Assembly (NCBI GenBank): GCA_024644435.1 | Contig: JAHEKZ010000010.1 | Coordinates: 1 to 33,795 of the forward strand | Source of the DNA: Actinomycetes bacterium | Lineage (GTDB): Bacteria; Actinomycetota; Actinomycetes; JAHEKZ01 | Length of the DNA: 33,795 nucleotides | Reading direction: 5' to 3' | Shown here: positions 385 through 9,649 of the stretch, one piece after another | Layout: the number at the start of each line of letters is the position of its first letter | Position numbering within the stretch: position 1 is the first letter of the stretch | The notes under the pieces: generated by a model | Told to the model about the DNA's origin: nothing | Seen by the model: only the letters and a program-made list of their open reading frames with translations | The model's database searches: none | Translations under genes and position numbers: made by a program

Positions 385-810
385 CTAGCAGCCACCGAGG
401 ACGAGGCCGCCCCCAGCGCTGTCGTAGCCCCAGTCGTTGTCCACCTTGATGTTGGTCGCGTTGACGCAGTACGACTGCCCATCAGCGGCCAGCGTGTAGT
501 CCATGACGGTCTCGACGTCAGAAACCTGAACGTCCGTTCCGTCAACGTCCACCGGGTCACCGGCGGCCGCCTGGGTGACGTCCACCTCAGCCGGGTACTC
601 CTGTGCATCGGTGAAGTAGGTCTCCAGCTGGTTGGCGGTGGTGCGGAGGTCAGACTTGATGCCCGACTCCGTAGCCTTCGCGCGCTGGTTCAGGAAGACC
701 GGAATTGCGATGGCGGCAAGAATGCCGATGATGATGATGACGACCAGGAGCTCGATGAGGGTGAAGCCACCCTCGTGCTCTTCCTGGGCCTTGCGGATGC
801 GAGCGAGCAT
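385..810 (-). CDS. pilA: Type IV prepilin (probable major pilin)
   Basis: Probable main structural subunit of the pilus, 141 residues. A 15-residue basic leader ends in Gly-Gly, then FTLIELLVV begins the mature protein. Prepilin peptidase should cut after Gly15, and Glu20 is the conserved Glu at mature position 5. A hydrophobic alpha-1 helix runs to about residue 40 and ends in FLNQRAKATES. The globular part carries Cys115 and a C-terminal Cys141, which could form the disulfide-bounded D-loop typical of type IVa pilins. The open frame extends upstream to 918, but ATG at 810 gives a normal leader and has an AAAGGG-rich stretch upstream; the extension would overlap the leader RNA. Its roughly 165-base leader contains a putative c-di-GMP riboswitch. 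It lies downstream of pilC and precedes the second pilin. Confidence 0.93.
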   Translation of the reverse strand: MLARIRKAQEEHEGGFTLIELLVVIIIIGILAAIAIPVFLNQRAKATESGIKSDLRTTANQLETYFTDAQEYPAEVDVTQAAAGDPVDVDGTDVQVSDVETVMDYTLAADGQSYCVNATNIKVDNDWGYDSAGGGLVLGGC

Positions 811-899
811 CTGTTTTCCCTTTCCCACTGTGCGATGAGCCGTGCGGCGCTCGCCCTTGGGTGATCCTCGACGGACGTGGTCCGCCGGGAAATCAGCCG

Positions 900-966
900 A
901 GGTAGCTGGGCTGACCACGAGGGTCCCCTTGCTTTGCGACCCTGCCTTGCGGCAGGTGTGCCTTTT
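900..966 (-). promoter_or_regulatory. Putative c-di-GMP-I (GEMM-I) riboswitch aptamer in the pilin leader
   Basis: Read on the minus strand, the pilin-1 leader shows the GEMM-I parts in order. AGGCACA is followed by stem P2 (CCTGCC, GNRA-class loop GCAA, GGCAGG; 956-941), then GTCGCAAAGC (940-931), which matches the family signature GACGCAAAGC. Stem P3 follows: GGGGACC (928-922) pairs with GGTC and CCC (916-908) around a bulged AG, ending CAGCCCAGCTACC. Family knowledge: GEMM-I aptamers bind c-di-GMP and often precede pilin and motility genes. Weak points are an unclear closing stem P1 (one C-A mismatch in the best pairing), CACA where CAAA is usual, and a short P3 without an obvious tetraloop receptor. 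The 3' arm of P3 can also pair with 898-893, giving a competing fold. Confidence 0.66.
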
Positions 967-980
967 CTGGCCGGTTGGCT

Positions 981-1007
981 CTTTACGGGTAGTGCTTCGA
1001 CCCCTGA
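981..1007 (-). promoter_or_regulatory. Possible FliA/WhiG-like promoter for pilin 1
   Basis: Minus-strand TCAGG (1007-1003), 14 bases, then CCGTAAAG (988-981). This is a weak match to the FliA-type pattern seen more clearly before pilB, pilT and the roadblock gene. A start point near 974 would put the riboswitch aptamer at the very 5' end of the transcript, which supports the placement. It also lies just past the pilC stop, as expected for a separately promoted pilin. Confidence 0.4.
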
Positions 1008-1037
1008 GGGGACGATCTTTAGCGCGACACCGATCTG

Positions 1038-2261
1038 TTACTCCTGGATCAGGTCGAACACCTTGAAGATCGGCATGTACATGGCGATGATCATGGCGCC
1101 GACGATGCCACCGAGGAAGGCGATCATCAGGGGCTCGATCAGCGAGGTGAGGGCCTCGGTCGTCGCTTCGACTTCTTGGTCGTAGAACTCCGAGATCTTG
1201 TGCAGCATCTCGTCCATCTGTCCGGTGTCCTCACCGACCGACATCATCTGCACCACCATCGGTGGAAAGACCGCGTGCTGCGCCAGTGGCGCCGTCAGCG
1301 ACTCGCCGTTCCGCACACTCTCCTGGACGTCGCGCACCGCCCTGGCGACCACGACGTTGCCGGAGGTGTCGGCCACGATGTCGAGGCTCTGCAGGATGGG
1401 CACACCGGCGTGCAGCATCGTGCCGAAGTTTCGGGTGAACCGACTCAGGGCGATCTTCTGCATCAGCGGACCGAAGACCGGCATCTTGAGCTTGAGCGGG
1501 TCGATGACGTTCGCGACCTGTTCCTTGTGCTTCACCTTGCGCCAGATGACCGTGAAGGCGATGAAGCCTATGACCATGAACGGGAAACCGACCTTGACGA
1601 CCTCGCTCAGAATGACCAAGATCCGGGTCGGCAGCGGTAGCGGGGCACCCAAGCCTTCGAACATCTTGGCGAAGACCGGCACGATGAAGAGCAGCATGCC
1701 GGTGACAGCCAGGATCGCCATCACAAACACCACCACGGGGTACGTCATGGCGCTCTTGATCTTGCCCTTGAGCTTGACCTCGGCCTCGTAGTTCTCGGCG
1801 ATCTGCAGCAGAACGCCATCAAGGAACCCGCCGACCTCACCCGCGCGCACCATGTTGACCATGAGCGGCGGGAACACGCTGGGATGCTGTGCCAACGATC
1901 CAGAGAGCGGGTTACCGGTCTCGACGTCATTGCGTACCTGGGCCAGCACCTCCGCGAGCTTCTTGTTCGGTGTCTGCTCGGACAGGATGTTGAGGGCTCG
2001 GAGAAGCGAGAGCCCGGAGTTGATCATGGTCGCGAACTGGCGCGACATGACGGCCAGGTCCTTGAGCTTCACCTTCCCGCCGAATCCGGGGATGCTCAGC
2101 TCTTTCTTCATACCGCCGCCGGCCTGCGAGATGCTCACCGTGGCATAGCCCATGCTGGTGAGCTTCTGCGCCACCGCAGCCTGAGACTCGGCATCGATCG
2201 TGCCCGAGACGATCTTGCCTGTCTTGTCGCGGACCTGGTACTGGAAGGTCGTGTTTCCCAT
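1038..2261 (-). CDS. pilC: Type IV pilus inner-membrane platform protein PilC (GspF family)
   Basis: Membrane platform that couples the cytoplasmic PilB and PilT ATPases to pilin insertion and removal. The 407 residues match the usual length. Two tandem GspF (T2SSF) repeats are visible: about residues 71-195, beginning LAVMSRQFATMINSGLSLL, and about 272-395, beginning LSRFTRNFGTMLHAGVPIL. Each is followed by a membrane segment (about 172-197 and 375-396), with another near 222-240. The paired motifs VRAGEVGG and SVGEDTGQ are typical. The frame is open to 2321, but ATG at 2261 is preferred because GGGAG lies about 9 bases upstream and the extension would overlap the end of pilT. The gap after pilT is 14 bases, so the two are surely co-transcribed. 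Confidence 0.95.
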   Translation of the reverse strand: MGNTTFQYQVRDKTGKIVSGTIDAESQAAVAQKLTSMGYATVSISQAGGGMKKELSIPGFGGKVKLKDLAVMSRQFATMINSGLSLLRALNILSEQTPNKKLAEVLAQVRNDVETGNPLSGSLAQHPSVFPPLMVNMVRAGEVGGFLDGVLLQIAENYEAEVKLKGKIKSAMTYPVVVFVMAILAVTGMLLFIVPVFAKMFEGLGAPLPLPTRILVILSEVVKVGFPFMVIGFIAFTVIWRKVKHKEQVANVIDPLKLKMPVFGPLMQKIALSRFTRNFGTMLHAGVPILQSLDIVADTSGNVVVARAVRDVQESVRNGESLTAPLAQHAVFPPMVVQMMSVGEDTGQMDEMLHKISEFYDQEVEATTEALTSLIEPLMIAFLGGIVGAMIIAMYMPIFKVFDLIQE

Positions 2262-2275
2262 CAGTGACGCTCCCG

Positions 2276-3892
2276 TCAGCCTCGGCCGGTAAGCCGGTTG
2301 AAGTCTTCGATGTGGTGGCACTTCTCGACGCCGGTCTCGTACGTGATCCGACCCTTGTTCACAAGATCAGCCAGATGCTGGTCCATGGTTTGCATGCCGA
2401 ACTTCGACCCGGCCTGCATCGCGCTGTAGATCTGGTGGGTCTTGCCCTCACGGATCAGGTTTCGGATAGCCGGAGTGGCCACGAGGATCTCGCAGGCAAC
2501 GACTCGACCCTTGCCGTCAGTCGTTCGAGCCAGCGTCTGACACACCACACCCTGCAGCGACTGCGCGAGCTGCGCCCGTACCTGCTGCTGCTGATGCGGC
2601 GGAAAGACGTCGATCATGCGGTCGATCGTCTGAGCCGCGTCCTGGGTGTGGAGCGTGGCATACACGAGGTGACCGGTCTCAGCAGCGGTGAGTGCCACCC
2701 CGATCGTCTCGAGGTCACGCATTTCACCGACGAGGATGATGTCGGGGTCCTGACGCAGCACGTGCTTCAACGCGTTCTTGAACGACTTGGTGTCTTCGCC
2801 GACCTCGCGCTGGTTGACCAGGCTCAGCTGGTGTCGGTGCAAGAACTCGATCGGGTCCTCACACGTCATGATGTGCTCTTTACGCTGGCGGTTCGCCAGG
2901 TCGAGCAGTGACGCCAGGGTGGTCGACTTCCCAGAACCGGTGGGGCCGGTGACGAGCACGAAGCCACGCGGCAGCGCCGCGAAGTTCGCCACCTGGTTCG
3001 GGACCCCCAGGTCTTCGAGCTTCTTGATCTCGAAGGGAATGATACGGAAGGCGGCTCCGACGGAGTCCCGTTGCCGGTACATGTTCACGCGGAAGCGCGC
3101 ACGTCCGGGGACCGAGTAGGCGAAGTCGAGCTCCAGCTCTTCTTCGAAGATCTCTCGCTGGCGCTGGGTGATGGCCGCGTACATGACCCGCTGGATCACC
3201 GGCGGCGTCAGGACGGGATACTCGTCCATCTGCGCCAGCTCACCGTTGATCCGGATTGCGGGACGGGCGCCTGCCGTGATGTGCAGGTCGGAGGCTCCCC
3301 GTCCGAGCATCACGAGCAGCAGGTCGACAAGAACGATCTCGTCACCCGCCAGACTCGGTTCGGTGGTGACGCGTGTGTACGCCTCTTCGCTGGCCTCGGT
3401 CTCGGCCAGCTCCACCATCACCTCTGGCTCGGCGTACTCGGTGACGTACTCCGGCTCAGCGGCTGCCGGCTCAGGTGTGGCTGCGTACTCGTCCACCATC
3501 TCAGGCGCTGCAGTGTTCTCGACCTCTTCTGGAGCTGCCTGCTGGTCATGGAAGGCCTGGTAGTCGAAGCTTTGGGTGGGTTCGGGCTCGCTCTCGACAT
3601 CGACGGTCGCGGCCTCCTCGGCAGCGATCGTGAGCGACATCGGCAGGCTGGAGGAGGCGGGAGACACGGACTCCTCGGGCGCGAGCAGCGAGCCGGAGTC
3701 GTAGGTGGTGGGGTCAAACTCCGATGCGGCCGGCTCGTGGACAGGCTGTTCCGTCGGCTGGTCATCCGGCTCGGAGGTGGGCGCGGTCGAGGTGGTGACC
3801 GGCGCGAAGAAGCCCATGTCGGCTCCGGCTTGCCCCTCATCGGGGCGTGAGTCGTCCCCTTGCGGCGCACCGCTGAACTCGGTGGTCTCCAC
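2276..3892 (-). CDS. pilT: Pilus retraction ATPase PilT with long acidic N-terminal extension
   Basis: Hexameric ATPase that drives pilus retraction. From about residue 187 the protein is a standard PilT: LVDLLLVMLGRGASDLHIT, Walker A GPTGSGKST (316-324), Asp box around TCEDPIEF, Walker B DIILVGEMRD (384-393), and the PilT-specific AIRNLIREGK (475-484) needed for retraction in studied homologues. The family is normally about 345-370 residues; this one has 538. The extra 185 N-terminal residues are rich in Glu, Pro, Ala and Thr, with no recognisable fold and probably disordered. The start is GTG at 3892, with AAGGAGG 9 bases upstream. A FliA-like promoter lies about 65 bases upstream, and a small hairpin (3927-3942) lies in the leader. 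The order pilB-pilT-pilC matches T4P operons. Confidence 0.95.
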   Translation of the reverse strand: METTEFSGAPQGDDSRPDEGQAGADMGFFAPVTTSTAPTSEPDDQPTEQPVHEPAASEFDPTTYDSGSLLAPEESVSPASSSLPMSLTIAAEEAATVDVESEPEPTQSFDYQAFHDQQAAPEEVENTAAPEMVDEYAATPEPAAAEPEYVTEYAEPEVMVELAETEASEEAYTRVTTEPSLAGDEIVLVDLLLVMLGRGASDLHITAGARPAIRINGELAQMDEYPVLTPPVIQRVMYAAITQRQREIFEEELELDFAYSVPGRARFRVNMYRQRDSVGAAFRIIPFEIKKLEDLGVPNQVANFAALPRGFVLVTGPTGSGKSTTLASLLDLANRQRKEHIMTCEDPIEFLHRHQLSLVNQREVGEDTKSFKNALKHVLRQDPDIILVGEMRDLETIGVALTAAETGHLVYATLHTQDAAQTIDRMIDVFPPHQQQQVRAQLAQSLQGVVCQTLARTTDGKGRVVACEILVATPAIRNLIREGKTHQIYSAMQAGSKFGMQTMDQHLADLVNKGRITYETGVEKCHHIEDFNRLTGRG

Positions 3893-4029: not shown

Positions 4030-5697
4030 CTAGACGACCACTCGGAGGATTTCGTCCATGGTCGTGACGCCGCTGGCCACCTTCAACATGCCGTCGTCTC
4101 GCAGCGTGCGCATGCCTTCGTCCCGGGCGGTCTCAGAGATCACCGTCGCCGATGCGCGTTCGACGGCGTGCCGCTCTACCGCCTCGCTCACCGCCATGAC
4201 CTCGTGAAGCGCCAGACGACCCCGGTAGCCAGTCTTCGAACAGGCGCTGCAGCCGACCGCCCGGTACAGCGTGGGGAGCTGCTGGCCATCGACCCAGGGG
4301 AATCGTGCCTGCACCAGCGAATCCGGGGTCGGCTCGTACGCCTCTTTGCACTTGCTGCACAACCGTCGAGCAAGCCGCTGGGCAAGCACGCAGTCGAGGG
4401 CCGAGCCCACGAGGAACGGTTCCAAGCCCATCTCGGTCAATCGGGTGACTGCTGACGGCGCGTCGTTGGTGTGCAGCGTCGACAGCACCAGGTGCCCGGT
4501 GAGGGATGCCTCCACCGCGATCTGGGCGGTCTCGTGGTCGCGGATCTCACCGATGAGCACGATGTCGGGGTCGCATCGCAGGATCGAGCGCAGCGCCGCA
4601 GCGAAGGTCAGCCCCGCTTTGGAGTTTGTCTGCACCTGGTTGATGCCCGGCAGCCGGTACTCGACCGGGTCCTCGACCGTGATCACGTTTACCTCGGGGC
4701 GCGCGATCTGGTTCAACGTGGCGTAGAGCGTGGTCGACTTACCCGAACCCGTGGGGCCGGTCACCAGGATCATGCCGTAGGGCTTGGAGAAGCTCTTGGC
4801 GTACGTGTCGCGGTTGAACTCGGAGAAGCCAAGGTCGGACAGCTCCATCTGGGCATTGGAGTTGTCCAGGATTCGCATGACGACCTTCTCGCCCCACACG
4901 GTCGGGAGGGTCGCCACACGGAGGTCGATCTTCTTGCCCTGGTGGTTGACCGACAGCCGTCCATCTTGCGGGATGCGCCGCTCGGCGATGTTGATGTCGG
5001 CCATGATCTTCAGTCGGCTGATCACGCCGGACTGGATGTTCTTGGGTGACTTCATGACGTCGTGCAGCACACCGTCGATCCGGTACCGCACAACAAGTGC
5101 ATGCTCACCTGGCTCAAGGTGGATGTCAGAGGCCCGGTCCTGAATCGCCTGTGTGATCAGGAGGTTGACGAACTTGACGATCGGGGCGTCCTCGACCACC
5201 TCCCTCAAGTTGGAGAGGTCCTCCTCGTCGTCGGCGCTGTCCATGACAGCGGACAGGTCGTCGAGGTCGGAGTCAGCACGGAAGTAGCGGTCGATCGCGC
5301 CCAGCACATCCGCCCTGGTTGCTACGACCGGACGGACCTCCAGACCGGTGATCGACCGGATGTCGTCGATCGCGAAGACGTTCGCCGGGTCGGCCATGGC
5401 CAGCAACAGCTTGCCGTCGTCATCGATGCGCAGAGGAAGAGCGGAGTGCTTGCGACAGATGGCCCCCGACACCCGGGCGATGATGCTGCCGTCTACCGGG
5501 TACTCGCCCAGGTCGACGAACTCCAGCCCGATCTGCTGCGCCAGTGCGGCCACCAGCTGTGACTCGGTGAGTACGCCTTGGTCGACCAGAACGCGACCCA
5601 GGGCCTTGCCCTGCTCCTTGTGCTCGCGGAAGGCAGCAAAGAGCTGGTCCTCAGTGACCAGCCCATCCTGCAACAGGATGTCGCCTAGCTGCTTCAC
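4030..5697 (-). CDS. pilB: Pilus assembly ATPase PilB (GspE family) with MshEN domain
   Basis: Hexameric ATPase that powers pilus extension, 555 residues. The N-terminal 140 residues form an MshEN domain. Two tandem LGxxL-x3-G-x6-L repeats are visible at about 4-27 and 33-55; the second (LGRVLVDQG...LVAALAQQ) fits the c-di-GMP-binding consensus fully, while the first ends in His instead of Gln. The catalytic core has Walker A GPTGSGKST (314-322), the Asp box (ITVEDPVEYRLPGINQVQ), Walker B DIVLIGEIRD (378-387), and a four-Cys zinc motif (Cys447, 450, 483, 486) typical of PilB/GspE. GTG at 5697 is preferred over the in-frame GTG at 5712, because TGGAGGG sits at correct spacing only for the former. 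A FliA-like promoter lies about 65-90 bases upstream. Confidence 0.95.
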   Translation of the reverse strand: MKQLGDILLQDGLVTEDQLFAAFREHKEQGKALGRVLVDQGVLTESQLVAALAQQIGLEFVDLGEYPVDGSIIARVSGAICRKHSALPLRIDDDGKLLLAMADPANVFAIDDIRSITGLEVRPVVATRADVLGAIDRYFRADSDLDDLSAVMDSADDEEDLSNLREVVEDAPIVKFVNLLITQAIQDRASDIHLEPGEHALVVRYRIDGVLHDVMKSPKNIQSGVISRLKIMADINIAERRIPQDGRLSVNHQGKKIDLRVATLPTVWGEKVVMRILDNSNAQMELSDLGFSEFNRDTYAKSFSKPYGMILVTGPTGSGKSTTLYATLNQIARPEVNVITVEDPVEYRLPGINQVQTNSKAGLTFAAALRSILRCDPDIVLIGEIRDHETAQIAVEASLTGHLVLSTLHTNDAPSAVTRLTEMGLEPFLVGSALDCVLAQRLARRLCSKCKEAYEPTPDSLVQARFPWVDGQQLPTLYRAVGCSACSKTGYRGRLALHEVMAVSEAVERHAVERASATVISETARDEGMRTLRDDGMLKVASGVTTMDEILRVVV

Positions 5698-5762
5698 GCC
5701 AACGCCCTCCACCTACGGATGCCCCGAGGGGATCGTTCCCGCCGGCACCGATGTCTTGCACT

Positions 5763-6060: not shown

Positions 6061-6636
6061 TCAGACGCCGGCTTTGACGGTCTCGACCTCGTCCAGCACC
6101 GAGTAGAGCAGTGCCAGCAGGACTGCCTTCACCGATTCCTTGTCAGTCGCGTCGCACGGGACGAGGGGAACGTTGGCGTCGATGCCCAGTGTCTGTCGGA
6201 TCCGTGCTTCCTCGACCTCGTCGACGCCAGTCGTCCGGTTCAGCGCGACGACGAAGGGCACGCGGGCCATACGTCGGAAGGCCTCGAGGATTCCGACCGC
6301 CTCAGCCAACGAGTCGGGACGGTTGGCATCGAGCAGCAGGACGTAGCCCAGCATGCCCTCGCCGAGGATCTCCCACATGAAGTCGAATCGCTCCTGCCCG
6401 GGGGTACCGAACAGGTAGAGGACGAGCTCGCGGTCGATGGTGATCCGGCCAAAGTCCATGGCGACGGTCGTCTCGTTCTTCCGCGACTTGGTGCTGTCGG
6501 AGATGCCACGCTCCGTCGAGAGCACCGTGATCTCGCTGATGGTGCGGATCAAGGTGGTCTTTCCGGCAGCGAACGGGCCGGTGATCACGACCTTGACCGC
6601 CTGACCGCCATGCCGACGACGTTGTTTGGTTGCCAT
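6061..6636 (-). CDS. Small Ras-like GTPase (MglA / CvnD-type)
   Basis: A 191-residue P-loop GTPase of the family found in actinobacterial conservons (CvnD), related to MglA. Visible motifs: G1 GPFAAGKTT (20-28), a switch-I Thr in NETTVAMDFGR (54-64), G3 FGTPGQERF (76-84, with Gly in place of the usual Asp, as I recall for Cvn-type proteins), G4 NRTT (133-136) and G5 PCDAT (160-164). G4 lacks the Asp of NKxD that normally reads guanine. MglA-type GTPases work with Roadblock-fold regulators, and a Roadblock gene lies two genes upstream. The start ATG is one base after the stop of the DUF4388 gene, implying translational coupling. A role in switching or placing the pilus machine is inferred from the neighbours. 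Confidence 0.88.
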   Translation of the reverse strand: MATKQRRRHGGQAVKVVITGPFAAGKTTLIRTISEITVLSTERGISDSTKSRKNETTVAMDFGRITIDRELVLYLFGTPGQERFDFMWEILGEGMLGYVLLLDANRPDSLAEAVGILEAFRRMARVPFVVALNRTTGVDEVEEARIRQTLGIDANVPLVPCDATDKESVKAVLLALLYSVLDEVETVKAGV

Positions 6637-6637
6637 G

Positions 6638-7918
6638 TCAGAGCCCCCGGACGCCGGCGATGAGTCGCAGCATCAGGCTGCGGTTGACGGTTGGATCACG
6701 TTCGATGGCACCCTCGCCAGCAGGTGCGGCCGCAGTGGCCACTCCCGCCATGCCGCCCGCTCCCCCGGTGCCCCCAGATGTCAGGCCTCCCGAGACTGCT
6801 GGCGCTGCCTGTGGTGCGGCCGCCGGTGAGGCGGCGCCGGCTGGTGGGGCGAACCCCGGAGCACGGACCGGTTCGGGGTGATCGACGTCGCGCTTGGGCA
6901 GGAAGGGCTCGGGACGAGGCGGAACCACGTCGTCCGGGGCATGGGCACCCGGCAAGTGCCCCGCCGAAGCTGCCGCAGCAGCAGGCGCGCTGGGCACCCC
7001 GGCCGGTGCACCCATGGGGGCGTCAGGTGCAGCCGGAGGCAGCTGCCCACCGGCGCTGGCTGGGATCGTGGCGTCCGGGACCACCGCGCCCGGCACGGCG
7101 CCGGGCGGTCCGGCGATGCCGCTACTGGCGGGCTCGGGAGCGGCTGCCTCAACCTGCCTCTGCTCCAACGGTGACAGCAGCTGATGACGCCGCCTCACCA
7201 AGGAGACGTGGTCAAGGCTCTCTTCGTCCTTCAGTACGAGCAGGCCGCGCTGGATCAGCGTGGCCAGGGTAGAAACGACGCTGTACTGACCGGCCCCCGA
7301 GACGTCCACCAGATCGCCGACGGACCGAACACCGTCGATCAGCGACAGGAGCGCCCAGGCGTCGGGGTCGACGGTGGTGTCCTCCGGAAGGACCACAGGC
7401 ATCGTGAGAACGACGTCAGGGCTGGGAATCATCCGCGACAACGACTCCCAGGCGTCACAACGTCCCGTGGCCTCACCGACGATCTGCTCAGCAGCGACGG
7501 CGAGTCCGACGTCGTCGGGGTTCTCATCTCCCATCCCGAACGAGAAGTCGCCGTTGGGCCAGCGGAGGAGATCAAAGACTGCATCTATCGCCTGCTCCAT
7601 CGCGAGCCGCTGAACGAGGGCCCCGTCGGCGGCACCTGCCTCGAGCAGGGCGCGCGCCACACCGGCGCCGTCGGTGGCTGCCCGTTCGACTGCCCTCCGC
7701 AGCGCGGAGTCATCGGCGGCACCCAGGCCGACAATGCGGCGAGCCAGCGCCTGTCTTTCCAGGTCTGACACCGCACCGGTGACCGCACCGCCGGAGAAGT
7801 AGACGACGCCAGAGACCTGACCGTTGGTCAGGTGAAGTCCCCCGGACTTCTTCGTCAGGCTCAGGAGCTGGAAGACGTCCGGAAGACTGAAGGCGTCGAG
7901 CGAACCTTCGAGCTTCAC
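6638..7918 (-). CDS. DUF4388 (PATAN) domain protein with Pro/Ala-rich linker
   Basis: A 426-residue protein of unknown biochemical role. Residues 1 to about 110 are a DUF4388/PATAN domain (MKLEGSLDAFSLPDVFQLLS, then GLHLTNGQVSGVVYFSGGAV), a family found in bacterial signalling and motility proteins, including response-regulator fusions. Residues of about 185-240 look like a winged-helix segment (WALLSLIDGVRSVGDLVD ... LIQRGLLVL). Residues of about 255-405 are a low-complexity Pro/Ala/Gly linker. The final 19 residues (DPTVNRSLMLRLIAGVRGL) form a predicted amphipathic helix that could be a docking peptide. The start is GTG at 7918; the ribosome site is weak (AAGGA about 12 bases away). The gene sits between the Roadblock and GTPase genes, so an adaptor in that switch is likely. 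Confidence 0.82.
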   Translation of the reverse strand: MKLEGSLDAFSLPDVFQLLSLTKKSGGLHLTNGQVSGVVYFSGGAVTGAVSDLERQALARRIVGLGAADDSALRRAVERAATDGAGVARALLEAGAADGALVQRLAMEQAIDAVFDLLRWPNGDFSFGMGDENPDDVGLAVAAEQIVGEATGRCDAWESLSRMIPSPDVVLTMPVVLPEDTTVDPDAWALLSLIDGVRSVGDLVDVSGAGQYSVVSTLATLIQRGLLVLKDEESLDHVSLVRRRHQLLSPLEQRQVEAAAPEPASSGIAGPPGAVPGAVVPDATIPASAGGQLPPAAPDAPMGAPAGVPSAPAAAAASAGHLPGAHAPDDVVPPRPEPFLPKRDVDHPEPVRAPGFAPPAGAASPAAAPQAAPAVSGGLTSGGTGGAGGMAGVATAAAPAGEGAIERDPTVNRSLMLRLIAGVRGL

Positions 7919-7974
7919 GTCGGGTCACGATCCTTCGTGGACAGGGGCGGGCACGGACGGGGGCAGGAGGCCGA

Positions 7975-8712
7975 TCAGGACCAGGAGCTGCCGTCGGACG
8001 CGACCACGGCGGGCCGACGATCGTCTGGCTGGACAGGAGCCGCGTGGGCGTATCGGTCGCCCGACGAGTTCTGGTCGTTATCGGGACGCTCGGCGTCCTG
8101 GACAACCGGTACCTGGGGGGTAGCGGGCTGCTGGACCGGCTCAGGCTGGACTTGCTGGGCAGCCGGCTGGGCCGGCTGGACGGGCTGGACGGGCTCAGGC
8201 TGCTGAGACTGGTACTGGACGGGCTCCTGCATCTGCGGCTGCTGCGCGACCGGGGCAGGGGCTGGCTCGGCGGCGACCGGGACCAACGGGGGTAGCGGCT
8301 CCAGCTCGACGCGCAGGGAGGTTCCGACGGCCGCGGCCGCCTGCTTGACCTCGTACAGCATCAGACCGACCTTGGCACCGACCCGACCGACCGCGACGAG
8401 GACTGCCTCGTCGTCGGCGCTGACCAGGAAGACGGTGCCGTTGTCACCCTCGACGTAGACCTGCGACAGGTCGCCGCGTCCCAGTCCTTGAGCGGCGCGT
8501 TCACCGAGCGACAGCAGGGCGGCCGACATCGCTGCCACGCGGTCCTCGTCCATGCCAGGAGGCAGGGCAGACGCCATCGGCAGCCCATCGAAAGACACGA
8601 CGGACGCAGCCTCGACATCGGGAACCTGGCGCAGGAGCGCGCCCAGGATCTGGTCGAGCTGAAGCGAGCGTCCTGCGGCACCGCTAAGTGCGGCGGCGTA
8701 GGGATCTGACAT
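7975..8712 (-). CDS. Roadblock/LC7 domain protein (MglB / CvnB-like)
   Basis: A 245-residue protein. A Roadblock/LC7 domain occupies about residues 15-125: QLDQILGALLRQVPDVEAAS, then VVSFDGLPMASALPPGMDED, with the central helix AAMSAALLSLGERAAQGL and the strand TVFLVSADDEAVLVAVG. Such domains dimerise and regulate Ras-like GTPases; MglB is the GAP for MglA, and CvnB plays a related role in conservons. From about residue 135 the protein is a Gln/Pro/Val-rich tail, probably disordered. The frame extends upstream to 8868 inside aroE, but ATG at 8712 has AGAGGTG at good spacing and gives a normal domain start. A FliA-like promoter precedes it, making it the likely first gene of the pilus transcription unit. 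Confidence 0.9.
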   Translation of the reverse strand: MSDPYAAALSGAAGRSLQLDQILGALLRQVPDVEAASVVSFDGLPMASALPPGMDEDRVAAMSAALLSLGERAAQGLGRGDLSQVYVEGDNGTVFLVSADDEAVLVAVGRVGAKVGLMLYEVKQAAAAVGTSLRVELEPLPPLVPVAAEPAPAPVAQQPQMQEPVQYQSQQPEPVQPVQPAQPAAQQVQPEPVQQPATPQVPVVQDAERPDNDQNSSGDRYAHAAPVQPDDRRPAVVASDGSSWS

Positions 8713-8742
8713 GGTGCACCTCTCGCGATCGAACCGCGTCGC

Positions 8743-8768
8743 CGATCGGAGCGCCGACCGGACCTTAA
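8743..8768 (-). promoter_or_regulatory. FliA/WhiG-like promoter upstream of the roadblock gene
   Basis: Minus-strand TTAAG (8768-8764), then CCGATC after 14 bases (8749-8744), in the 73-base gap after aroE. The start point would be about 24 bases before the ATG, leaving room for just the ribosome site. It shares its layout with the elements before pilB and pilT. Inferred from the pattern. Confidence 0.48.
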
Positions 8769-8785
8769 GGGGTGCTTCGGCTGCG

Positions 8786-9649
8786 TTACTGCTCCTCTTG
8801 AGCGATATCCGGTGAAGCGGGCGTCCGGCTCGCGTCATCGGCCGCGCGAGCGGCCAGGGCCGCCTCACCTGCCGCCTGCAGCACCTCGACCGCAGGCCGA
8901 CGACCGCACATCAGCTCGACTTGCTCAACCGCCTGCCGGACGAGGAGCTCAAGGCCCCCGACGACCGCGCCCCCGGCCGACGTCCACCCCGACGCCAGCG
9001 GGGTGGGCCACGGGTCGTAGATGACATCGATCAGCACCCCCGGGTGGGCGGGCGCCCAGGCGGCGGACGCCGCTGATGCCGGCACCGTGCTGATCACGAC
9101 GTCCGCGGTCAGCTCGGCAGCGCCGATCGGCCACGCCCCCACCGCAGCCACCAGGCCGCATGAGGCCGCAAGGTCGGTGAGCTCGGCCGCCGCCTGCGCA
9201 CGCCGCGCCCGCACCTCGACGCGGGTCGCTCCGCTGGCCGTGATCGCCATGACCGCTGAACGGGCTGTCGCTCCGGCGCCCAGGACCGTGACCGTTCGAG
9301 CACCACTGGGGATGAGCTGTTGGAGCCCGGTGATGTCGGTGTTGTGCCCCACCCGGCGTCCGCCGGTCAACACCACCGTGTTCACCGCCCTCACCCGACC
9401 AGCCACATCATCGACCTCATCGAGCAGCCCGATCACCGTCTCTTTCAGCGGCATCGTGAGGGAGAGCCCGGCCCACTCCGGGCCCAGCCGGTCGAGGAAC
9501 GCCTCCAGGTTCTGCGGAGGCACGTCGACGGCCTCATACGCCCAGTCCATTCCGAGTGACGCATAGGCCGCCCGATGGAGGACGGGTGAGAGCGAATGCG
9601 CGATCGGATGCCCCAGCACCGCGGCCCGCCGCCCGGAGGTCGCGATCAC
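8786..9649 (-). CDS. aroE: Shikimate dehydrogenase
   Basis: Reduces 3-dehydroshikimate to shikimate with NADPH in aromatic amino-acid synthesis; 287 residues. The substrate domain shows GHPIAHSLSPVLH (13-25), SLTMPLKE with the catalytic Lys69, and GHNTD with Asp105. The nucleotide-binding loop is GAGATARSA (124-132). The SLTMPLKE form, where enterobacteria have NVTxPxK, is as I recall from other actinobacterial AroE. GTG start at 9649 overlaps the mltG stop by 4 bases (GTGA). Transcription probably continues from mltG, while the pilus genes downstream start from their own promoter. Confidence 0.95.
   Translation of the reverse strand: MIATSGRRAAVLGHPIAHSLSPVLHRAAYASLGMDWAYEAVDVPPQNLEAFLDRLGPEWAGLSLTMPLKETVIGLLDEVDDVAGRVRAVNTVVLTGGRRVGHNTDITGLQQLIPSGARTVTVLGAGATARSAVMAITASGATRVEVRARRAQAAAELTDLAASCGLVAAVGAWPIGAAELTADVVISTVPASAASAAWAPAHPGVLIDVIYDPWPTPLASGWTSAGGAVVGGLELLVRQAVEQVELMCGRRPAVEVLQAAGEAALAARAADDASRTPASPDIAQEEQ

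Follow-up and report, generated by a model that had tools for sequence, protein, structure and literature searches.

Does the leader of an actinobacterial type IV pilin gene carry a c-di-GMP riboswitch, and, if so, at how many steps does c-di-GMP act on the gene? This question is raised by the minus strand of a 33,795-nucleotide stretch of DNA from an Actinomycetes bacterium (hereafter, the window), in which an open reading frame at 385..810 encodes a protein of 141 amino acids. Its translation shows a class III signal peptide (EGGFTLIELLVV), and MLARIRKAQEEHEGGFTLIELLVV together with a Pfam N_methyl match (31.3 bits; cut-off, 21.2) marks the product as a type IV pilin.

A cmscan search of the whole window gave one match at gathering level, namely to RF01051, the c-di-GMP-I (GEMM-I) family, at 972-898 on the minus strand, with 53.5 bits (E 6.5e-8) against a gathering score of 35 bits. 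The alignment spans model positions 1-87 of 87 and is hence full length, and the match is the sole one in the 2.53 Mb genome. The 3' end of the aptamer lies 87 nt from the pilin ATG.

The core of the aptamer consists of GGCACACC, then P2, then GCAAAGC, and P3 contains a bulged AG (GUCAGCCC); the GCAAAGC after P2 and the AG bulge are both sited where the first-pass annotation of this DNA had put them. P2 is formed by 956-951 with 946-941, with a GCAA loop of the GNRA type, and P1 by 972-967 with 901-895, with one bulge. When 32 pilin leaders were aligned, P2 and P3 were 97.6% paired and showed strong covariation. The strands of P1 were conserved as GGCC(A)AG with CU(C)GGCC (or GGCCAG/CU(C)GGCU), with one base bulged or mismatched. 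In a species-swap test the native P1 pairs were not better than the swapped ones because P1 hardly varies. Covariation was thus found in P2 and P3, and P1 is conserved and too invariant to covary. The first-pass annotation had also described P1 as weak and the P3 receptor as missing. P1 is in fact a conserved helix that lies partly beyond the annotated 900-966, and there is no sign of a lost tertiary contact because the AG bulge of P3 is retained and the P2 loop is GNRA.

The nucleotides that determine ligand specificity were all canonical, namely G962, A935, and C902, which we take to correspond to G20, A47, and C92 of the Vibrio riboswitch Vc2. Furthermore, ten GGDEF domains are encoded in the genome; therefore, c-di-GMP is plausibly made in the cell. 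The gathering-level Rfam match on the minus strand, the canonical contact nucleotides, and the covariation and conservation in 32 leaders bear out the original proposal of a GEMM-I riboswitch leading an actinobacterial type IV pilin. Judged by its sequence, the aptamer is a canonical, ordinary member of the known c-di-GMP-I family and a predicted c-di-GMP binder, differing from the family in that the present group reads CACACC where the family has CAAACC. It is very improbable that it is instead a variant for another ligand, of the c-di-GMP-I-GGC or the cGAMP type. Among all the matches listed for 500-1500, RF03167 (c-di-GMP-I-GGC) outscores RF01051 in bits (57.0 vs. 53.5), but this score, at 970-897, is below its own cut-off of 59, and GCAAAGC in the window has A in place of the diagnostic G of the RF03167 core GCGAAGC. 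The cGAMP riboswitches carry A at a position that is G in the window. With a standard full-length match to RF01051 and RF03167 below its cut-off, the divergent subclass that had been considered at first finds no support.

Upstream of the aptamer, we observed the motif TAAAG-N17-CGAA at 996..1021 on the minus strand, which is a predicted sigma-28/WhiG-type promoter of the pilin gene. In consensus, the leaders read TMAAG and CGA separated by 16-17 nt, and the motif starts 43-74 nt (mostly 49-56) ahead of the aptamer. Of 39 non-redundant pilin leaders, 37 contained it, compared with a mean of 1.0 and a maximum of 5 in dinucleotide shuffles, counts that ignore shared ancestry and rest on a pattern drawn up after inspection of pilin leaders. 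The boxes of flagellar/WhiG promoters have been described as TAAA and GCCGATAA (PMC8325347); compared with these boxes at flagellar spacing, TAAAG-N17-CGAA is a partial match, and TMAAG-N16-17-CGA resembles a flagellar/WhiG promoter. A strict form of the pattern was found in 16/26 pilin leaders and 8/26 leaders of other genes in the same class. Before c-di-GMP-I aptamers, it was found at 18/27 loci in other classes of the phylum, some of them closely related to one another, and at 0/53 loci in other phyla.

When both strands of the window were scanned, the strict pattern occurred four times, at 1021, 3984, 5789, and 8801, always on the minus strand and always preceding genes of the pilus cluster; the expected number was 0.64, and four sites were reached in 0 of 200 simulations. 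Upstream of the pilin and on the same strand, Pfam identified pilC (T2SSF; 1038..2321), a PilT-like T2SSE ATPase gene (2276..3892; predicted WhiG-type promoter, 3984-3959), and pilB with an MshEN domain (4030..5712; predicted WhiG-type promoter, 5789-5765). Given the gap of 228 nt between pilC and the pilin gene on the same strand, the riboswitch might alternatively be part of a polycistronic pilBTC-pilin transcript and tune pilin relative to the machinery, the upstream motif then being no promoter. This reading gains from the genome-wide frequency of the strict pattern, which occurs 86 times, compared with 26 times for a reversed control, so that lone matches elsewhere carry little weight. 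We nevertheless consider it unlikely, since the motif is conserved at a near-constant distance from the aptamer, all the window sites are ahead of pilus-cluster genes, and the Rubrobacter pilus cluster contains WhiG-type promoters with mapped start sites (PMC8325347).

In a relative of the same genus, three further prepilin-like genes are located downstream of the pilin gene, the point at which the contig of the window stops. Genes for a Ras-like GTPase, a DUF4388 protein, and a Roadblock/LC7 protein adjoin pilB (6061-8868), with the WhiG-type site at 8801, and this segment resembles a pilus-associated polarity module of the MglA/MglB type. The MshEN domain of PilB was considered as a third c-di-GMP input and rejected because its contact residues are lost; where two intact RLGxx..Q motifs are required, the first reads QLG...H and the second ALG...Q, with both Arg residues and one Gln missing.

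A single protein of the genome matches the FliA/WhiG sigma family (284.9 bits), and the RsiG of the genome is of the twin-motif type, having two intact c-di-GMP motifs (E-S-R-Q-D; full motif, E-X3-S-X2-R-X3-Q-X3-D). With WhiG and an RsiG bearing the c-di-GMP motif, the genome is predicted to possess the WhiG-RsiG-c-di-GMP switch. Another RsiG-like protein, in which one motif is intact, was also observed (L199:2428-2955; contig 3 of G000). RsiG was found in 144/155 genomes with the riboswitch and in 104/242 without it in the sample of the phylum, and in 24/25 and 27/54, respectively, in the nearer sample, counts that are inflated by shared ancestry. In Rubrobacter, RsiG binds WhiG together with c-di-GMP, and the authors regard WhiG-RsiG as the sole sigma/anti-sigma complex known to be a target of this messenger (PMC8325347). 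The present genome resembles Rubrobacter in combining WhiG and RsiG with a pilus cluster that has WhiG-type promoters, here predicted ones, and differs in its twin-motif RsiG; riboswitches are unmentioned in the Rubrobacter paper.

The leader also contains a long-range pairing outside the aptamer, here termed P0, which together with the predicted WhiG-type promoter immediately upstream sets this leader apart from the RF01051 family. It was proposed unprompted by RNAalifold and joins GAGCC(GC) (977..981, minus strand, for GAGCC), close to where the mRNA is predicted to begin, with (GC)GGCTC located 23-38 nt upstream of the ATG (837..841, minus strand, for GGCTC). In the pair counts, P0 was 90.1% paired and slid copies reached 31-45%; shuffles attained the covariation score of P0 in 2 of 500 cases. 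The species-swap test gave p values of 5e-5 for all leaders, 0.0005 when two hand-anchored leaders were removed, and 0.009 for distinct combinations. A linker segment able to pair with the 3' strand of P0 over 6-10 bp is present in approximately half of the leaders; P0 and this competing segment possibly form a two-state platform. The leader of the window has a P0 of 5 bp only and no clear competitor segment. The minus strand of the leader showed no intrinsic terminator, and in modelling of a partial set of 19 leaders the accessibility of the Shine-Dalgarno sequence was essentially unchanged between P1 formed and P1 forbidden. The RNA step may possibly operate via termination by Rho, via the stability of the mRNA, or via ribosome standby. 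Many relatives have a GUCC...GGAC hairpin across the Shine-Dalgarno sequence, which was left out of the model because it is absent in the genus of the window. CCUCG/CGAGG was noted by eye as a candidate anti-P1 pairing.

Taken together, with a riboswitch in the 5' untranslated region and a predicted WhiG-type promoter of the pilin's own, we predict that c-di-GMP probably gates the pilin twice, by WhiG/RsiG at initiation and by the canonical riboswitch in the leader. The parts of this model that were observed are the aptamer, the promoter motif, the covariation of P0, and proteins of the WhiG, RsiG, and GGDEF kinds; binding of c-di-GMP by the leader, dependence of the promoter on WhiG, and the role of P0 as the switch are predictions. 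At initiation, RsiG with bound c-di-GMP would sequester WhiG, as is known in Streptomyces and Rubrobacter. After initiation, the leader aptamer would bind c-di-GMP and P1 would be stabilised, which may shift the leader between P0 and the competing helices and alter pilin output.

For the sign of the RNA step, we slightly favour OFF when c-di-GMP is high, an outcome that would strengthen the RsiG lock. Riboswitches for c-di-GMP of either sign are known, and we regard it as possible, though not probable, that the same parts turn the pilin ON at high c-di-GMP. WhiG transcripts made at low c-di-GMP would then be poorly used until the signal rises, resulting in a pulse or in a response to intermediate c-di-GMP only. 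A precedent is provided by Clostridioides difficile, in which a c-di-GMP riboswitch ahead of type IV pilus genes reportedly controls them (Bordeleau 2015, cited in PMC6916266). The ON sign, however, runs counter to the direction of the RsiG lock, and neither a terminator in the leader scan nor Shine-Dalgarno sequestration in the 19 modelled leaders was found to favour it. The Clostridioides riboswitch, which is of class II, has another structure and belongs to another phylum.

The arrangement on which the proposed double gating of the pilin rests is widespread, a feature that was absent from the first-pass annotation, as were the WhiG-type promoter and P0. The rarity in Actinobacteria that it had implied did not hold: the family was found in 155/397 sampled genomes of the phylum and 40/297 of the class, and 29 of the 56 loci fetched at class level precede a pilin of the same type. 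When named genomes were scanned with the core pattern, metagenome-assembled genomes (MAGs) of Frankiales, Nocardioidaceae, Micrococcales, and Mycobacteriales had matches before such pilins, and many other phyla had matches before genes of other kinds. The recurrence of the aptamer with the promoter across the phylum suggests, at the level of sequence, that one signal controls a gene twice.

Several other loci were observed. At eleven of them, c-di-GMP-I aptamers precede secreted CAP/SCP-like proteins, in many cases with a WhiG-type motif upstream, and those of the same class as the window have the core GCAAAGG, not GCAAAGC. Three loci (L003, L005, and L047) have aptamers ahead of small secreted TasA/CalY-like proteins, followed in L003 and L005 by a signal-peptidase-like gene; these are possible biofilm-matrix operons. 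In Lysobacter tabacisoli, two c-di-GMP-I cores with a spacing of 124 nt (L153:6912-7067) represent a tandem riboswitch candidate. In another genome of the window's genus, a weaker c-di-GMP-I match (38.2 bits) precedes the gene of a secreted protein resembling sulfatases and not that of a pilin. Two public MAG contigs titled Bifidobacterium breve share the pilin leader with the actinobacterium acAMD-2, and their titles are probably wrong.

The aptamer family was already known; the coupling to the promoter and P0 are apparently new. We found no publication linking WhiG-RsiG with c-di-GMP riboswitches in the open-licence literature, a scope that gives no proof of novelty. As a tentative extension, somewhat doubtful at present, c-di-GMP-I riboswitches may lie systematically on WhiG-driven transcripts throughout Actinomycetota, with the RNA step yielding a response beyond that of RsiG alone via the P0/competitor platform. 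If this is true, the WhiG regulon, including pilins, secreted CAP-domain proteins, and others, would be read twice by c-di-GMP; the RNA step would add what RsiG alone cannot give (pulsed output, band-pass behaviour, or rapid shut-off), and the two-state platform would be previously undescribed. If the target mRNAs of WhiG-RsiG also carry c-di-GMP riboswitches, one messenger would act on one gene at two successive steps, and such double gating would bear on pilus control in a phylum in which little is known about pilus regulation.
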